A DNA stretch of 64,000 nt from Actinomycetes bacterium (lineage in GTDB: Bacteria > Actinomycetota > Acidimicrobiia > Acidimicrobiales > RAAP-2): NCBI GenBank assembly GCA_021798955.1, contig JAJZBK010000015.1, positions 1-64,000 on the forward strand, written 5' to 3'. Numbering within the stretch: position 1 is the first letter of the stretch; each line of letters starts with the position of its first letter. The notes under the pieces are model-generated. The model was not told the origin of the DNA. It was given only the letters and a program-made list of their open reading frames with translations, and made no database searches. Both the position numbers and the translations under genes were made by a program. Below are positions 51,864 through 64,000 of the stretch, in pieces.

Positions 51864-53297
51864 ATGGCTGACCACCCCGGACCCCCTGACGCTCGACCTA
51901 CCGACGCCCGGAGCGACCCCGGCGGCGAGCCGGTGGTCCCCGTGGCCGGAGGCCCCGAGCTTGCAAGCCCCGAGCCCGGAGGCCCCGAGCTGATGGAGCC
52001 CGAGCTGATGGAGAAGGTGGTGGGCCTGTGCAAGCGTCGAGGGTTCATCTTCCAGTCGGCCGAGATCTACGGCGGGTTCCGCTCCACCTACGACTACGGC
52101 CCGCTCGGGGTCAACCTCCTGCGTAACGTCAAGAACGCCTGGTGGGAGGCCATGGTGCAGCGCCGCGACGACGTGGTCGGCCTGGACGCCTCCATCCTCA
52201 CGCCCCCAGCGGTGTGGGCGGCCTCCGGCCATCTGGCCAACTTCACCGACCCGCTCGTCGACTGCCGCTCGTGCCACCAGCGGTGGCGCCAGGACAAGAT
52301 CGATGGGGTCTGCCCGAACTGCGGCTCGACGGAGTTCACCGAAGCTCGAGCGTTCAACCTCATGTTCAAGACCCACGCCGGCCCGATCGAGGACGAGGGT
52401 GCCGTCGCCTACCTGCGCCCCGAGACGGCGCAGGGCATGTTCATCAACTTCGCCAACGTCCTCCAGACGACGCGCAAACGACCACCCTTCGGGATCGCCC
52501 AGGTCGGCAAGTCCTTCCGCAACGAGATCACCCCGCAGAACTTCGTGTTCCGGACCCGCGAGTTCGAGCAGATGGAGCTCGAGTTCTTCGTCCCTCCCGA
52601 AGACGCCGCCACCTGGTTCGAGTACTGGCTGGCCGAGCGGTACCGGTGGTACGTCGAGCTCGGCATCCCCGACGAGCTCCTCCGCCTCCGCCACCACGAC
52701 CCCGAGGAGCTCTCCCACTACTCGGCGGGCACCGCCGACGTCGAGTTCCGGTTCCCCTGGGGGTGGGACGAGCTCGAGGGCATCGCCAACCGCACGGACT
52801 ACGACCTGAAGGCCCACGCCGCCGCGTCGGGGGCCCGTCTCGAGTACTTCGACCAGGCCACCGGCGAGCGCTACGTCCCCTATGTCATCGAGCCGGCAGC
52901 GGGAGCGACCCGCACCATGATGGCCTTCCTCCTCGCCGCCTACCGCGAGGACGAGGTCGGTGGGGAGCCCCGTACGGTGCTCGCCCTCCATCCGCGGCTC
53001 GCTCCCTACCAGGTCGCCGTGCTGCCCCTGTCCAAGAAGGAGACCCTCGAGCCACTGGCGCGCTCGGTCCTCGCTGCCCTCCAGCCTCACGTGATGTGCG
53101 ACTACGACGTGACCCAGTCCATCGGCCGGCGGTACCGCCGCCAGGATGAGATCGGCACGCCGTGGTGCGTGACCGTCGACTTCGACTCGCTGGAGGACGG
53201 AGCCGTGACCATCCGCGATCGCGACACCACCGAACAGGTCCGCGTGCCGATCGACACCGTGGTGGAGGAGATCCGGCGGAGGGTGGGGGCAGCCTGA
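51864..53297 (+). CDS. glyS: Glycyl-tRNA synthetase, alpha2 type
   Basis: A class II synthetase of 477 residues. Landmarks are LCKRRGFIFQSAEIYGGFRS, the zinc-type CRSCHQRWRQ...CPNC, the motif 2 region PFGIAQVGKSFRNEITPQNF, motif 3 near AAGATRTMMAFLLAAY, and an anticodon-binding domain ending VRVPIDTVVEEIRRRVG. The first 45 residues are Pro/Glu-rich and repetitive (GGPEL/ASPEP/GGPELMEPELME), before the conserved part. ATG 51864. Confidence 0.96.
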   Translation: MADHPGPPDARPTDARSDPGGEPVVPVAGGPELASPEPGGPELMEPELMEKVVGLCKRRGFIFQSAEIYGGFRSTYDYGPLGVNLLRNVKNAWWEAMVQRRDDVVGLDASILTPPAVWAASGHLANFTDPLVDCRSCHQRWRQDKIDGVCPNCGSTEFTEARAFNLMFKTHAGPIEDEGAVAYLRPETAQGMFINFANVLQTTRKRPPFGIAQVGKSFRNEITPQNFVFRTREFEQMELEFFVPPEDAATWFEYWLAERYRWYVELGIPDELLRLRHHDPEELSHYSAGTADVEFRFPWGWDELEGIANRTDYDLKAHAAASGARLEYFDQATGERYVPYVIEPAAGATRTMMAFLLAAYREDEVGGEPRTVLALHPRLAPYQVAVLPLSKKETLEPLARSVLAALQPHVMCDYDVTQSIGRRYRRQDEIGTPWCVTVDFDSLEDGAVTIRDRDTTEQVRVPIDTVVEEIRRRVGAA

Positions 53298-53368
53298 GCG
53301 GGGCGGATAGGCTCGTTCGGTCGCGTGCCTCGCCGGCCGCCGGTCCGCCTACCAGGAGAGTCGCCTCG

Positions 53369-56257
53369 ATGCCGTTCGTCTTCGACTTCGACCACAATCA
53401 CCCGAAGCCGCCCATGGAGCTCAAGGAGCTGCTCGGGGGCAAGGGGGCAAACCTGGCCGAGATGACGTCCGTCCTCGGGCTGCCGGTCCCTCCGGGCTTC
53501 ACCATCTCGACCGAGGCTTGCCGCGCCACCATGGCCGGCGGGTGGCCTGAGGGGCTGTGGGGCGAGGTCACCCGGGCGCGGGCGCGGCTCGAGCGGAAGA
53601 TGGGCAAGCGCATCGGCGACGCCAAGGACCCCCTGCTCGTCTCCGTGCGCTCGGGGGCGATGTTCTCGATGCCGGGCATGATGGACACGGTCCTCAACCT
53701 GGGCCTGAACGACCGGTCGGTCGAGGGGTTGGCCCGTCAGACGAGCGACCGTCGCTTCGCCTACGACTCCTACCGCCGGTTCGTGGCCATGTACGGCCGG
53801 ATCGTCCTCGGCATCCCCGGCGAGGAGTTCGACACCCTGCTGGAGGCGGCCAAGGAGCTGGCCGGTACGGCGTCGGACGCCGGCATCCCCGTCGAACTGC
53901 TCACCTACCTCGTGGAGGCCTACCAGCAGATCGTCGAGCGCCACACCGGTAAGCCCTTCCCTCAAGATCCCGACGAGCAGCTCCGTGGAGCCGTTGACGC
54001 GGTGTTCTCGTCCTGGAACGGGCCCCGGGCGATCGCCTACCGGGTGCGGGAGCGGATCTCACACGACCTCGGCACGGCGGTCAACGTGCAGGCCATGGTG
54101 TTCGGCAACCGCGACGACCGGTCGGGCACGGGGGTGGGCTTCACTCGTGACCCGGCGACGGGAGCGACGGGCGAGTACGGCGACTTCTTGGTCAACGCCC
54201 AGGGCGAGGACGTGGTCGCCGGCATCCGCAACACCCAGCCCCTGTCGGCGCTGAAGAAGCTCTTCCCGGCCATCCACGACGAGCTGCTGGACATCTTCGC
54301 CCGGCTCGAGCGCCACTACCGCGACATGTGCGACACCGAGTTCACCATCGAGCAGGGCAAGCTCTGGATGCTCCAGACTCGCGTCGGCAAGCGGACCGGG
54401 CGTGCCGCCCTCAAGATGGCCGTCGACATGACCAAAGACCGGGCGATCAAGCTCACCCGGGCCGAGGCCGTCGCCCGCATCACCGGTGACCACCTCGACC
54501 AGGTGCTCCACCCGCAGTTCGCCGGCTCGGGCCACCAGGTGCTGACCTCGGGGCTCGGTGCCTCGCCCGGAGCGGCGGTCGGTCGCGTCTACCTGACCGC
54601 CGACGATGCCGAGGCAGCGGCCAAGCGGGGCGAGCAGGTCGTCCTGGTGCGCAGCGAGACCTCGCCGGAGGACGTCCACGGCATGTTGGCCGCCGAAGGC
54701 ATCCTCACCGCCCGGGGCGGCCTGGTGAGCCACGCCGCGGTGGTCGCCCGAGGCTGGGGCAAGCCGGCCGTGGTCGGTGCCGAGGCGGTGCGGATCGTGG
54801 CCGACGGCTTCGTCGTAGGAGACACGCTCGTCCACCAGGGCGACTGGATCTCGGTGGACGGTACGTCCGGGACGGTCGTCCTCGGACAGGTGCCGCTCAC
54901 GCAGGGGGTGACGCCACCCGAGTTCGACACCATCCTGGCGTGGGCCGACGAGCTGCGCGCCGGCCAGCTCGGCGTCCGGGCGAACGCCGACAACGGGCCC
55001 GATGCCACCAACGCGCGACGCCACGGCGCCGAGGGGATCGGCTTGTGCCGGACCGAGCACATGTTCCTCGCCGAGGACCGCCTGCCCATCGTGCGCCGGA
55101 TGATCCTGGCCGACACCAAGGCTGAGGAGACCGACGCCCTCGAGGCGTTGCGCGTGGCCCAGAAGGCCGACTTCGTGTCCATCCTCGAAGCGATGGACGG
55201 CCTGCCGGTGACGGTCCGCCTCCTCGACCCGCCGCTGCACGAGTTCCTGCCCGACACCGCCGAGCTGGCCATCAAGGAGGCCACCGTCGGACTGACGGCC
55301 GAGGAGGACCGGCTGTTCGCCGCCGCCAAGACGTGGCACGAGTTCAATCCCATGCTCGGCACCCGCGGCGTCCGCCTCGGGGTGCTGAAGCCCGGCCTCT
55401 ACGCCATGCAGGTCCGGGCCCTCATGGAAGCTGCCCTCGACCGAGTGGCGGCCGGCGGCCACCCGATCGTCGAGATCATGATCCCCCTGACGGTGTCCCG
55501 AGAGGAGCTGGCGCTCGCCCGGTCCTGGGTGGAGGAGGCAGTGGCCGCGGCCTCCGCGGCCCCGGCAGCCCGTGGACGCGGAGGCCGCGGGCGGACGAGC
55601 CCGGGTGCCTCGCGGCGGGGCGTGCTCGAGGTGTCGATCGGCACCATGATCGAGACCCCTCGGGCCGCCCTGCGCGCCGGTGACATCGCGGAGGTCGCCG
55701 ACTTCTTCTCCTTCGGCACCAACGACCTCACCCAGATGACCTTCGGCTTCAGTCGTGACGACGTCGAGGGCCGGATGATGGCCGCCTACCTCGAGCAAGG
55801 CCTCCTGCCCCGCAACCCCTTCGAGACGGTCGATCCTGACGGGGTGGGCGAACTGGTCCGTCTGGGCGTCGAGCGGGGCCGGGCCACCCGGCCAGGCCTC
55901 AAGGTCGGAGTGTGCGGCGAGCACGGCGGCGATCCCGAGTCGATCCTCACCTTTGCCCGCGCCGGCGTCGACTACGTGAGCTGTTCGCCTTTCCGGGTGC
56001 CGATTGCTCGTCTGGCCGCCGCCCACGCCGTGCTGGCCGGAGCGACGAGGGCCCGGACGGACGCCGGAGCGGGCACCAGTGGTGGTGCGACCCCGGCCAA
56101 GCGGGCCAGTGGTGGTGCGACCCCGGCCAAGCGGGCGACCCCGGCCAAGCGGGCCAGTGGTGGTGCGACCCCGGCCAAGCGGGCGACCCCGGCCAAGCGG
56201 GCCAGTGGTGGTGCGACCCCGGCCAAGCGGGCGACCCCGGCCAAGCGGGCGCGCTAG
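53369..56257 (+). CDS. ppdK: Pyruvate, phosphate dikinase with basic C-terminal tail
   Basis: It interconverts pyruvate, ATP and phosphate with PEP, AMP and pyrophosphate. It has 962 residues. The N-terminal ATP-grasp domain starts LLGGKGANLAEMTS. The phosphohistidine domain has the GGLVSHAAVVARGWGKPAVVG motif (swivel His). The PEP-binding domain includes GIGLCRTEHMF and GTNDLTQMTFGFSRDD. The last 59 residues are an unusual Lys/Arg/Ala tail with ASGGATPAKR and ATPAKR repeats, absent from typical PPDKs. ATG 53369 follows AGGAG. Confidence 0.94.
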   Translation: MPFVFDFDHNHPKPPMELKELLGGKGANLAEMTSVLGLPVPPGFTISTEACRATMAGGWPEGLWGEVTRARARLERKMGKRIGDAKDPLLVSVRSGAMFSMPGMMDTVLNLGLNDRSVEGLARQTSDRRFAYDSYRRFVAMYGRIVLGIPGEEFDTLLEAAKELAGTASDAGIPVELLTYLVEAYQQIVERHTGKPFPQDPDEQLRGAVDAVFSSWNGPRAIAYRVRERISHDLGTAVNVQAMVFGNRDDRSGTGVGFTRDPATGATGEYGDFLVNAQGEDVVAGIRNTQPLSALKKLFPAIHDELLDIFARLERHYRDMCDTEFTIEQGKLWMLQTRVGKRTGRAALKMAVDMTKDRAIKLTRAEAVARITGDHLDQVLHPQFAGSGHQVLTSGLGASPGAAVGRVYLTADDAEAAAKRGEQVVLVRSETSPEDVHGMLAAEGILTARGGLVSHAAVVARGWGKPAVVGAEAVRIVADGFVVGDTLVHQGDWISVDGTSGTVVLGQVPLTQGVTPPEFDTILAWADELRAGQLGVRANADNGPDATNARRHGAEGIGLCRTEHMFLAEDRLPIVRRMILADTKAEETDALEALRVAQKADFVSILEAMDGLPVTVRLLDPPLHEFLPDTAELAIKEATVGLTAEEDRLFAAAKTWHEFNPMLGTRGVRLGVLKPGLYAMQVRALMEAALDRVAAGGHPIVEIMIPLTVSREELALARSWVEEAVAAASAAPAARGRGGRGRTSPGASRRGVLEVSIGTMIETPRAALRAGDIAEVADFFSFGTNDLTQMTFGFSRDDVEGRMMAAYLEQGLLPRNPFETVDPDGVGELVRLGVERGRATRPGLKVGVCGEHGGDPESILTFARAGVDYVSCSPFRVPIARLAAAHAVLAGATRARTDAGAGTSGGATPAKRASGGATPAKRATPAKRASGGATPAKRATPAKRASGGATPAKRATPAKRAR
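56078..56254 (+). repeat. Mixed 30/18-bp tandem repeats in the ppdK tail
   Basis: Units of GCGACCCCGGCCAAGCGG (18 bp, ATPAKR) and the 30-bp form that adds GCCAGTGGTGGT (ASGG) alternate, giving a lysine-rich tail of 59 residues. Confidence 0.97.
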
Positions 56258-60882: not shown

Positions 60883-61527
60883 TTACTTTTTGGCCGGCTC
60901 GTAGTACGGGTTGGTGCCAGAGGCGTGGTCGGTGACGTCGACCACACGGGTGACCTCGGGGATCAGCTCGCGCAAGGTCACCTCGATGCCCTGGCTGAGG
61001 GTGACGGAGGCCATGCCGCACCCCGCACACCCGCCACTCAGGCGGAGGTACGCGGACCCCTCCTCGACGGCGACCAGATCGGCCCGCCCGCCGTGGGCGG
61101 CAATCGCCGGGTTGATCTGCTGCTCGAGGACCTGGATCACCCGTTGGGCGACGTCGCCGCTCAGATCGGGTGCCGGTAGGTCTGACTGCACAGCCGGGGA
61201 GGCCGGGGGTCGGTTGGGGTTCTTGATGACCATCCCACGCGCGTCGCCCTCTCCGTCGACGTCGAGGACGGCGCCGTTCAGCCGGTCGATGCTGGCAGCC
61301 GGCACCACGATCGGCAGGCCGTCGCTCTCGCCCTGCCAGTCACCAGGAGCAGCGTCGGTCAGTGCCTGGAAGTAGATGTCGTACGTGTAGGAGTCCCCGT
61401 TGGTCCCTGCGACCTCGACCCACAGGGCCAGCGAGCCGGCGTCAGCCTCGGAGGAGCGCAACGACAGCACGTCGGCCGCCGCCGCCGGTGTCACATCGAA
61501 CGAGGGTGTCTGGTCGGCGTCAGTCAT
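60883..61527 (-). CDS. NfuA-like Fe-S carrier (NifU C-terminal domain)
   Basis: A protein of 214 residues. A degenerate A-type (IscA-like) N-terminal domain (TPAAAADVLSLRSSEADAGS ... GMVIKNPNRP) lacks the cysteine set. A NifU-like domain follows with LSGGCAGCGMASVTLSQGIE (CxxC, 4Fe-4S binding) and ELIPEVTRVVDVTDHASGTN. It likely delivers Fe-S clusters to apo-proteins, which could include the radical SAM enzymes nearby (hemW and the gene at 62823). ATG 61527; divergent from the ATP-grasp gene. Confidence 0.9.
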   Translation of the reverse strand: MTDADQTPSFDVTPAAAADVLSLRSSEADAGSLALWVEVAGTNGDSYTYDIYFQALTDAAPGDWQGESDGLPIVVPAASIDRLNGAVLDVDGEGDARGMVIKNPNRPPASPAVQSDLPAPDLSGDVAQRVIQVLEQQINPAIAAHGGRADLVAVEEGSAYLRLSGGCAGCGMASVTLSQGIEVTLRELIPEVTRVVDVTDHASGTNPYYEPAKK

Positions 61528-61571: not shown

Positions 61572-62813
61572 GTGCCCCGGTTGCTCCTGCTCCTCCCCAC
61601 CACCACCTACCGGGCTGCCGATTTCGTAGTGGCGGCAGAACGAGCTGGCGCCGAGATCATCGTCGGGTCTGACCGGCGCCAGGCGCTCGCCGACGACATG
61701 GGAGATCGGGCCCTCGTGCTCCCGTTCGACCAGCCTGAAGCGGCTGTCGAAGCCATCGTGTCCCTCAACGAACGCGCTCCCCTCGATGCCGTGCTCGCGG
61801 TGGACGACCAGGGTGTGACGATCGCCGCGGCCGCTTCGGCGCGTCTCGGCCTCGTTGCCAGTCCCGAGCGGGCGGTGGCGCGGACTCGCGACAAGGCGGC
61901 CCAGCGTCGTCGCCTGACGGCCGCCGGGCTGGACCAGCCTGCCTTTCGAGTTGTCCCTGATGCCGATGCCGCCGTGCGGGCGGCCCTCGAGGTCGGTTTC
62001 CCCTGCGTCGTCAAGCCGCTCGATCGGTCGGCCAGCCAGGGAGTGCTCCGCTTGGACGACGTCGGCTCGGCGCTCCACGGCGCTTCCCGGGTAGCTCGCA
62101 TCGCCGGGGAGGGCGCACCGCTCCTGGTCGAAGCGTTCGTGCCGGGCGTCGAGGTCGCCGTCGAGGGACTGGTGGTGCGGGGTCGCACGGCGGTGCTGGC
62201 CGTATGGGACAAGCCCGACCCGCTGGACGGACCGACCTTCCCCGAGACGATCTACGTGACGCCGTCCCGCCATCCGGCGACCATCCTCCGGGCCGTGCAG
62301 CGCGAGACAGCTCGGGCGGTGACCGCCCTCGGGCTCACCGAGGGGCCGGTGCACGTCGAGCTCCGGGTCGGCGACGGGGGGCAGGTGACCGTCCTCGAGG
62401 TGGCCGCGCGGTCGATCGGGGGACGTTGCTCGAAAGCACTGCGGCTCGAAGGCCGGACGTCGCTCGAGGATGTCATCGTGGCCCATGCGCTGGGCAGACC
62501 GTTCGAGGGAATGGCTCATGAGGGCCCAGCGTCGGGTGTCATGATGCTGCCCGTCGTCGATGAGGGTGTCCTCGACCACGTCGACGGAGTGGAGGACGCC
62601 CTTGCCGTGCCCGGCGTCACCGCTGTCGACCTGACGCTCTCAGCTGGCTCCCCCCTCGTCCCGCTGCCGGAGGGCGATCGATACCTCGGTTTCATCTTCG
62701 CCCGGGCGCTCTCCCCTGGCGAAGTCGAGCTTCGGCTCCGTCAGGCGGCCGGACAACTCCAGGTTCGCCGCCGGCCGGACCAGGCGGGAGGAGGAGCAAC
62801 CCACTCCGGGTAG
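61572..62813 (+). CDS. ATP-grasp domain protein
   Basis: A 413-residue ligase-fold protein. The N-terminal pre-ATP-grasp domain is LLLLPTTTYRAADFVVAAER. The ATP-grasp motifs include FPCVVKPLDRSASQGVLRLD, LLVEAFVPGVEVAVEGLVV, VHVELRVGD and VLEVAARSIGGRC. Family members join a carboxylate to an amine or thiol, forming an acyl-phosphate; the substrate is unknown. It starts at GTG 61572 and is followed after 9 bp by the radical SAM gene, so a two-gene operon is likely. Confidence 0.88.
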   Translation: MPRLLLLLPTTTYRAADFVVAAERAGAEIIVGSDRRQALADDMGDRALVLPFDQPEAAVEAIVSLNERAPLDAVLAVDDQGVTIAAAASARLGLVASPERAVARTRDKAAQRRRLTAAGLDQPAFRVVPDADAAVRAALEVGFPCVVKPLDRSASQGVLRLDDVGSALHGASRVARIAGEGAPLLVEAFVPGVEVAVEGLVVRGRTAVLAVWDKPDPLDGPTFPETIYVTPSRHPATILRAVQRETARAVTALGLTEGPVHVELRVGDGGQVTVLEVAARSIGGRCSKALRLEGRTSLEDVIVAHALGRPFEGMAHEGPASGVMMLPVVDEGVLDHVDGVEDALAVPGVTAVDLTLSAGSPLVPLPEGDRYLGFIFARALSPGEVELRLRQAAGQLQVRRRPDQAGGGATHSG

Positions 62814-62822
62814 CGTCGGCAC

Positions 62823-64000
62823 GTGCGAGTCCTGCTGGTGTCCACCTACGAGCTCGGTCACCAGCCAACGGCGCTGGCCGTGCCGGCTGACCGTCTCCGG
62901 CGCGCTGGCCACGAGGTCGCCTGCCTCGACCTCGCGGTGGAGCCGCTCGATGCAGATGCGATCGACCGAGCCGACAAGGTCGCCGTGTCGGTCCCCATGC
63001 ACACGGCCACACGGCTTGCCCGTGAGGTCGTCTCGGCTATCCGGGCTCGGCGCCCCGGCATCCCGGTTTGCTACTACGGCCTGTACGCCGAGACGGCTGC
63101 TGTACCGGATGAGTCAGGGCTGGACGAATGGTTCGGGCTCGGACCCGGCGACGCGGCCTTGGCGGGTGAGATCGAGCCCGATCTCGAGGCGTGGGTCGAC
63201 GGGCGGATGACGGGCGTGTCACGCCGGCTTGCCCGAGTGCCCGACCGACGGAGCGACCGTTCGGGCCTCGTCCCACTCGAGCGCTACGCACGATTCGTCG
63301 ACGAGCGCGGCGAGCGGCTGGTGGGTGCCGTCGAGGCCAGTCGTGGCTGTTCACACCGGTGCCGGCACTGTCCGGTACCGGTCGTCTACGACGGACGGGT
63401 CCGTCCGGTCGATGTCGCCGACGTCCTCTCCGACGTGGACCAGCTGGTCGAGGCCGGAGCGACGCACCTCACCTACACCGACCCCGACTTCCTCAACGCA
63501 CCCCGGCACGCTGTCCGGGTCGTCGTCGCCGTGCACGAGCGCCATCCGGACCTGACCTTCGACTGCACCGTGAAGGTCGAGCACGTGCTCCGCCATGCCC
63601 GGCTGTGGGCGGACATGGCTGCCTCCGGCTGCCGGTTCGTCGTGTCGGCGTTCGAGTCGACCAACGACCGCCTGCTGGGTTTGTTGCGCAAGGGGCACAC
63701 GGTCGAGGAGGCGTCGGCAGCCGTGGTTGCACTGCGTCGACATGGCATCGAGGTCCGTCCGTCGTGGCTGCCGTTCACCCCGTGGACCTCTGCCGCCGAT
63801 GTCGCCGACGTGGTCGACTTCGTCCGCGCCCACGACTTGGTCGGAAACGTCGACCCCGTGCAGTACACGGTCCGCCTCCTCGTGCCCCCCGGTTCGTTGC
63901 TCCTGGCCGACCCCGAGCTTGCTGCCGCCTTTGGCCCCTACGACGCCGAGCACCTCGGCTACCGCTGGGAGCACCCGGACCCGTCGGTCGACGCGCTCCA
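62823..64000 (+). CDS. B12-binding-like radical SAM protein, CUAEP/CCAEP-tail type (partial)
   Basis: At least 392 residues, running off the window. The N-terminal domain begins VRVLLVSTYELGHQPTALAV, then LDLAVEPLDADAIDRADKVA with VSVPMHTATRLA. The radical SAM motif is SRGCSHRCRHCPVPVVYDGR (CxxxCxxC). FDCTVKVEHVL and SAFESTNDRLLGLLRKGHT follow. It resembles a family named for a C-terminal CUAEP or CCAEP tail, in which U is selenocysteine; the tail lies beyond 64000. It is paired with the ATP-grasp gene. Start GTG 62823, 9 bp after the preceding stop. Confidence 0.82.
   Translation, partial: MRVLLVSTYELGHQPTALAVPADRLRRAGHEVACLDLAVEPLDADAIDRADKVAVSVPMHTATRLAREVVSAIRARRPGIPVCYYGLYAETAAVPDESGLDEWFGLGPGDAALAGEIEPDLEAWVDGRMTGVSRRLARVPDRRSDRSGLVPLERYARFVDERGERLVGAVEASRGCSHRCRHCPVPVVYDGRVRPVDVADVLSDVDQLVEAGATHLTYTDPDFLNAPRHAVRVVVAVHERHPDLTFDCTVKVEHVLRHARLWADMAASGCRFVVSAFESTNDRLLGLLRKGHTVEEASAAVVALRRHGIEVRPSWLPFTPWTSAADVADVVDFVRAHDLVGNVDPVQYTVRLLVPPGSLLLADPELAAAFGPYDAEHLGYRWEHPDPSVDAL

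Follow-up and report, generated by a model that had tools for sequence, protein, structure and literature searches.

A cysteine variant of the CUAEP/CCAEP-tail radical SAM family in a conserved two-gene unit with an ATP-grasp ligase

We analyzed a 64,000-nucleotide stretch of DNA (the window, positions 1-64000 of contig C30, which extends to 65697) whose end falls inside a radical SAM gene. The full gene encodes a cysteine variant of an NCBI-named, uncharacterized family, and it lies in a two-gene unit with an ATP-grasp ligase that is conserved well beyond chance. The two genes probably help build one small molecule. The features discussed here are as follows.

60883..61527, minus strand: NfuA-like Fe-S carrier gene, divergent, a conserved neighbor
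61572..62813, plus strand: ATP-grasp ligase gene, 413 aa, GTG start and TAG stop (from the ORF list and domain search)
62823..64358, plus strand: radical SAM gene, 511 aa, GTG start; the part inside the window is 62823..64000
63348..63371, plus strand: CX3CX2C [4Fe-4S] cluster motif of the radical SAM protein, residues 176-183, invariant in 80/80 family proteins
Contig 64179-64193, past the window, plus strand: CCSEP tail of the radical SAM protein, residues 453-457
Contig 64384-65226, downstream of the radical SAM gene: EfeU-like iron permease gene

The stop codon of the ligase gene and the start codon of the radical SAM gene are separated by exactly 9 nt on the plus strand, the distance given by an earlier, sequence-only reading of this DNA, and 44 bp separate the start codons of the ligase gene and the divergent NfuA-like gene. 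The full radical SAM protein scored 500.8 bits against NF040546, the NCBIfam model for CUAEP/CCAEP-tail radical SAM (seleno)proteins, which passes narrowly the curated cut-off of 500 and bears out the family assignment made from the sequence alone; the SRGCSHRCRHC motif cited in that reading is also present in the ORF. The 392-residue fragment inside the window matched the same model with an E-value of 2e-134, which excludes a chance match. A radical SAM domain (PF04055, 50.7 bits for a cut-off of 29.5) and the CX3CX2C motif place the protein in the radical SAM superfamily, and its N-terminal B12-binding-like domain (PF02310, 33.6 bits for a cut-off of 32.1) is a match to the domain, not to binding. 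NCBI gives no function for NF040546, the family being named by its tail only. The protein resembles the model over its full length, in its B12-binding-like and radical SAM domains and in the paired cysteines before xEP, but it ends in LTETWFCCSEPTAAQL followed by a poorly ordered extension, with about 50 additional residues after the tail. Hence, the anticipated CUAEP/CCAEP tail was found in part: two adjacent cysteines do precede xEP, but the spelling is CCSEP, which matches neither named form. By its score we count the protein as belonging to the family, its tail being a variant that a clade of 17 has in common.

Only five cysteine columns were invariant among 80 aligned family proteins: three that ligate the cluster and the two of the tail, the 80/80 invariance of the latter counting Sec as Cys. 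An AlphaFold2 model built with 55 family sequences (mean pLDDT 88.8, pTM 0.87) confidently predicts a well-ordered tail, residues 441-460 averaging a pLDDT of 85-90 per ten-residue block and residues 469-511 falling below 50. The nearest folds were AprD4 (Z 26.1, rmsd 4.1, 404 residues), MgmA, OxsB, MiaB, and TsrM, with Z-scores of 22.9-26.1 over about 350-410 residues. These proteins share the fold but only 16-20% identity, and some of them require cobalamin; to our knowledge, the CCSEP-type tail motif is absent from all five. A sequence search of the PDB returned distant radical SAM matches alone, and no ArsL structure appeared in the fold-search results, which has no bearing on family membership.

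The sequence-only reading had also raised a possible selenocysteine in the part of the tail beyond position 64000, to be recognized by an in-frame TGA and by the presence of selA, selB, selC, and selD. Read to its end at 64358, the gene encodes a tail of ...LTETWFCCSEPT..., with Cys-Cys; the Sec site carries TGC and no in-frame TGA precedes the natural stop, so this radical SAM gene lacks the suggested selenocysteine. As the search of this genome (an assembly 92% complete) likewise yielded nothing for SelA and nothing above cut-off for SelB or SelD, we rejected the gene as a selenoprotein. To place the variant within its family, we read every tail among the 80 highest-ranking of at least 508 relatives (our named loci) and found CCAEP in 42, Cys-TGA-AEP in 21 and CCSEP in 16, one tail being truncated by a contig end. 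The CCSEP proteins, including this one, grouped together in one clade with 17 members (local support 99 with FastTree, no bootstrap), and about 7 changes are needed to account for the Sec form on this tree. The 21 TGA loci have in common a 7-bp hairpin whose stem starts at base 16 (numbering from the T of TGA). In the covariation analysis, 98% of cells were paired, 6/7 pairs had changed on both sides and 0/500 shuffles were as good, while fold z-scores averaged -1.09 in the 21 Sec tails vs 0.19 in the 58 Cys tails (simple base shuffles). The TGA and its covarying hairpin indicate that the Sec form is real in these relatives, and they support a SECIS element for the 21 TGA loci.

We also searched for the Sec machinery in 32 of the 37 genomes that carry the radical SAM gene in the two genome sets described below (all but G032, G037, G104, G126, and G345). 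Eleven of them have a tail TGA, each read directly, and SelA and SelB were over cut-off in 11/11 and SelD in 10/11. Among the other 21 genomes, SelA and SelB were found in two (G040 and G173) and SelD in four (the same two, G057, and G095). G136 was tried as a twelfth TGA genome and rejected: its tail reads WFCCAAPPR and its TGA is the normal stop, so it was counted as Cys. Together, the Cys/Sec alternation, the covarying hairpin and the presence of SelA and SelB in 11/11 genomes suggest that the second tail residue is under selection as a thiol or selenol. One locus, L138 (G203), has a Cys-TGA-Ser-Glu-Pro tail, a Sec form bearing the serine that elsewhere occurs in the CCSEP clade. On a Thermomicrobium roseum megaplasmid (L103, 9935-11371), the annotated gene for a TGA form ends at the TGA, with AEP in frame after it; the annotation of the surrounding stretch examined includes no ATP-grasp gene.

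The partner ligase carries ATPgrasp_N, ATP-grasp_4 (PF13535, 82.9 bits), and LAL_C2 (PF18603, 50.7 bits) domains, and with both Pfam scores above cut-off it has the domain make-up, an ATP-grasp fold with LAL_C2, of the L-amino-acid-ligase ATP-grasp proteins. By these domains it resembles the L-amino-acid ligases BacD and DdaF, but it reached only 42 and 27.5 bits against those models, for which the cut-offs are 850 and 840. LAL_C2 takes its name from L-amino acid ligases, and its presence fits an amino acid substrate. Profile searches of the 80 loci found the ligase gene adjacent upstream of the radical SAM gene in 55 and linked in 2; it was not nearby in 17, and 6 had too little upstream sequence. 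When sought genome-wide in these 23, it was found in 17/17 of the not-nearby set and in 3/6 of the short-upstream set. The ligase is therefore present in 77/80 radical SAM genomes, and the tie persists where the two genes have moved apart. In the three without a match (L038, L058, and L060), no more than 152 bases separate the radical SAM gene from the start of its contig. The two-gene unit, first suggested by the position of the genes, is thus backed by comparative genomics well beyond adjacency.

Similar results came from two other genome sets, keeping in mind that related genomes do not give independent counts, a dependence that keeps the Fisher values computed for the loci from being true probabilities. 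The set of 61 relatives had strong radical SAM matches in 14 genomes, to which G001 is added, its gene being cut at the contig end after 32 residues, and the ligase was found in exactly those 15 with E-values of 3e-85 or better; this cut was picked after viewing the matches, the next best of which were far weaker (8e-33 and 2e-22). Among 346 genomes of the phylum that are at least 90% complete, with G000 as the sole positive in common with the previous set, 23 had the radical SAM gene and 30 the ligase; 22 had both, one (G081) had the radical SAM gene alone and eight had the ligase alone. Since the radical SAM gene almost never occurs without the ligase, the radical enzyme seems to need the ligase and not the reverse, and the eight ligase-only genomes suggest that the ligase either acts first or serves an independent role. 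The two proteins also showed correlated pairwise distances (r 0.84, 56 pairs, 0/2000 permutations), a result that shared descent alone could also yield. A DUF169 gene was nearby in 24/80 loci. In the complete genome record of Actinobacteria bacterium IMCC26256 (L083), all four genes (DUF169, NfuA-like, ligase, and radical SAM) lie together, offering an entry point for a first experiment.

Two points absent from the sequence-only reading are the divergent NfuA-like gene and the close relation to ArsL. ArsL (NF040542) was the second-best NCBIfam model for the radical SAM protein, with 262.6 bits for a cut-off of 450, and the third, PhpK, gave 47.7 bits; conversely, ArsL proteins scored 336-364 bits against NF040546. 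An alignment with four ArsL-type plasmid proteins revealed common blocks over the full length and a C-terminal CC, at about 27-34% identity. ArsL is therefore the closest characterized family, with the same domain order and C-terminal CC, but the radical SAM protein differs from it by having CCSEP and an extension in place of the RCCLKC C-terminus, about 60 more residues ahead of the tail, and no surrounding ars genes. The RCCLKC tail of ArsL binds arsenic. Judged by these comparisons, the radical SAM family is a sister of ArsL. ArsL is reported to move the aminocarboxypropyl radical of SAM to arsenic (PMC12159101, PMC11048331); the founding paper of the arsinothricin biosynthesis cluster is PMC8552651.

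We propose, with a probability of roughly 0.4, that the pair is a two-enzyme biosynthetic module using ArsL-like radical chemistry. The [4Fe-4S] cluster on CX3CX2C would cleave SAM to form a 3-amino-3-carboxypropyl (or other SAM-derived) radical, which would become attached to a thiophilic atom or a substrate of thiol type bound by the C-terminal Cys-Cys pair (Cys-Sec in relatives), the pair presumably folding back onto the protein body. The product or the substrate would be an alpha-amino acid, which the ATP-grasp ligase could couple to another molecule through amide bond formation, and the NfuA-like protein may supply or repair the cluster. We found no biochemistry on the CUAEP/CCAEP-tail family in the literature, no paper on CUAEP and none on arsinothricin with ATP-grasp, in a coverage that did not extend to the primary ArsL mechanism paper or to Haft and Tolstoy 2025. 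The family was not noticed in the consulted passages of a 2026 review reached through the radical SAM selenoprotein literature, and the literature on DUF169, ArsL, and selenium with ATP-grasp offered nothing useful to this pair.

A less probable explanation is that the tail is a redox device, in which Cys-Cys or Cys-Sec serves as a donor of a hydrogen atom or of electrons, or closes to a disulfide or selenylsulfide, during an ordinary 5'-deoxyadenosyl-radical reaction on a molecule produced by the ATP-grasp ligase. Cys/Sec interchange at one residue, as observed here, is typical of redox sites; the closest fold, AprD4, performs ordinary deoxyadenosyl radical chemistry; and the finding of the ligase alone in 8/346 genomes, with the reverse almost never seen, would agree with a radical enzyme whose substrate is what the ligase makes. 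However, ArsL, by far the closest sequence relative, has a known reaction of another type. The conserved neighborhood raises yet another explanation, namely that the tail ligates the cluster or a second metal site, with NfuA as the true partner and a cofactor-related small molecule of Fe-S or lipoyl metabolism as the product. Indeed, the NfuA-like gene is the third conserved neighbor. It was close and divergent in all 50 loci having both it and the ligase near (median 47.5 bp between profile edges), beside the ligase in 5/5 ligase-only neighborhoods opened (of 8), and beside the ligase in 12/19 neighborhoods where the latter is separated from the radical SAM gene or the two sit on different contigs. 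In 4 loci, the NfuA-like gene has remained with the radical SAM gene rather than with the ligase. LipB and LipA families were each present in 13 loci, and MiaB and RimO were among the closest folds. We nevertheless consider this explanation unlikely, since NfuA matched in 61/61 relatives and is thus a housekeeping gene, the lipoyl genes are nearby in Chloroflexota alone, where they are directly downstream, and the 80 proteins have no additional invariant cysteine for an auxiliary cluster. LipB, LipA, and pyruvate dehydrogenase complex genes come after the radical SAM gene in Chloroflexota (L045-L065 and others).

The sister relation to ArsL could also mean that the product is an organoarsenical made in the ArsL manner, perhaps a peptide prodrug, and an ATP-grasp gene was indeed present in three of the four ArsL-type plasmid loci opened. 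We searched the surroundings of the 80 loci with twenty ars-cluster protein queries and found almost no ars genes apart from the ligase itself, the exceptions lying in L072, which has one ArsR-like gene and one weak ArsM-like match (27%, E-value of 2e-7), and in L084, with a weak MFS and ArsR-like match. Acr3 was over cut-off in 1/23 radical SAM genomes vs 6/20 comparison genomes, the latter being the first listed without a match, not a random sample; it was over cut-off in 2/8 ligase-only genomes and not in this genome. With ars genes almost absent and Acr3 rare, the known ArsL substrate is removed and the ArsL analogy loses some of its force. Arsenic as the element is not supported here, arsenite is not favored, and an organoarsenical is accordingly the least probable of the explanations considered. 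We also examined whether the ligase shares ancestry with the ArsL-linked ATP-grasps and found no support for it, as they fall into a separate clade and that pairing is at most convergent, in a tree that is itself weak (long branches, 12/22 inner branches open, usable sequence from 4/12 background stretches). Among plasmids, the ligase matched two records outside ArsL clusters better than it matched the ArsL-linked ATP-grasps (2 of 204 matching records opened). In L105, L106, and L107, which are plasmid loci of Priestia, Alicyclobacillus, and Pantoea, the ArsL-type cluster includes, besides an ATP-grasp gene, a GTP-binding protein known from annotation (CobW-type in L105). Both are missing from the L104 arsQLM stretch, and their presence suggests additional arsenical products.

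Through its sister relation to ArsL and its tie to one ATP-grasp ligase, a family that NCBI named only by its tail, and that switches between Sec and Cys within an otherwise fixed motif, becomes a testable two-enzyme pathway. At its most ambitious, and we offer this as speculation with low odds, the pair would make a widespread undiscovered small molecule with a carbon-to-soft-element bond (S, Se, Sb, or other), an amide-capped aminocarboxypropyl amino acid made by environmental Actinomycetota and Chloroflexota through a pathway in which Sec and Cys versions of one catalytic tail have repeatedly been interchanged.

Additional observations were made around the two genes. The EfeU-like permease scored 222 bits, below the EfeU cut-off of 255. 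Four bases ahead of its start lies a 14-bp perfect palindrome, TTAGGTATACCTAA (contig C30 64366-64379, L002:4367-4380), which resembles iron-regulator boxes and may take part in the regulation of iron uptake. Further downstream, a perfect tandem array of 8.4 copies of a 17-bp unit (contig C30 65389-65530, L002:5390-5531) is found near the contig end and is perhaps the cause of the assembly break at 65697. Within the window, a pyruvate phosphate dikinase-like ORF (53162-56257) has a last part made of repeats of GGATPAKRA-type units.
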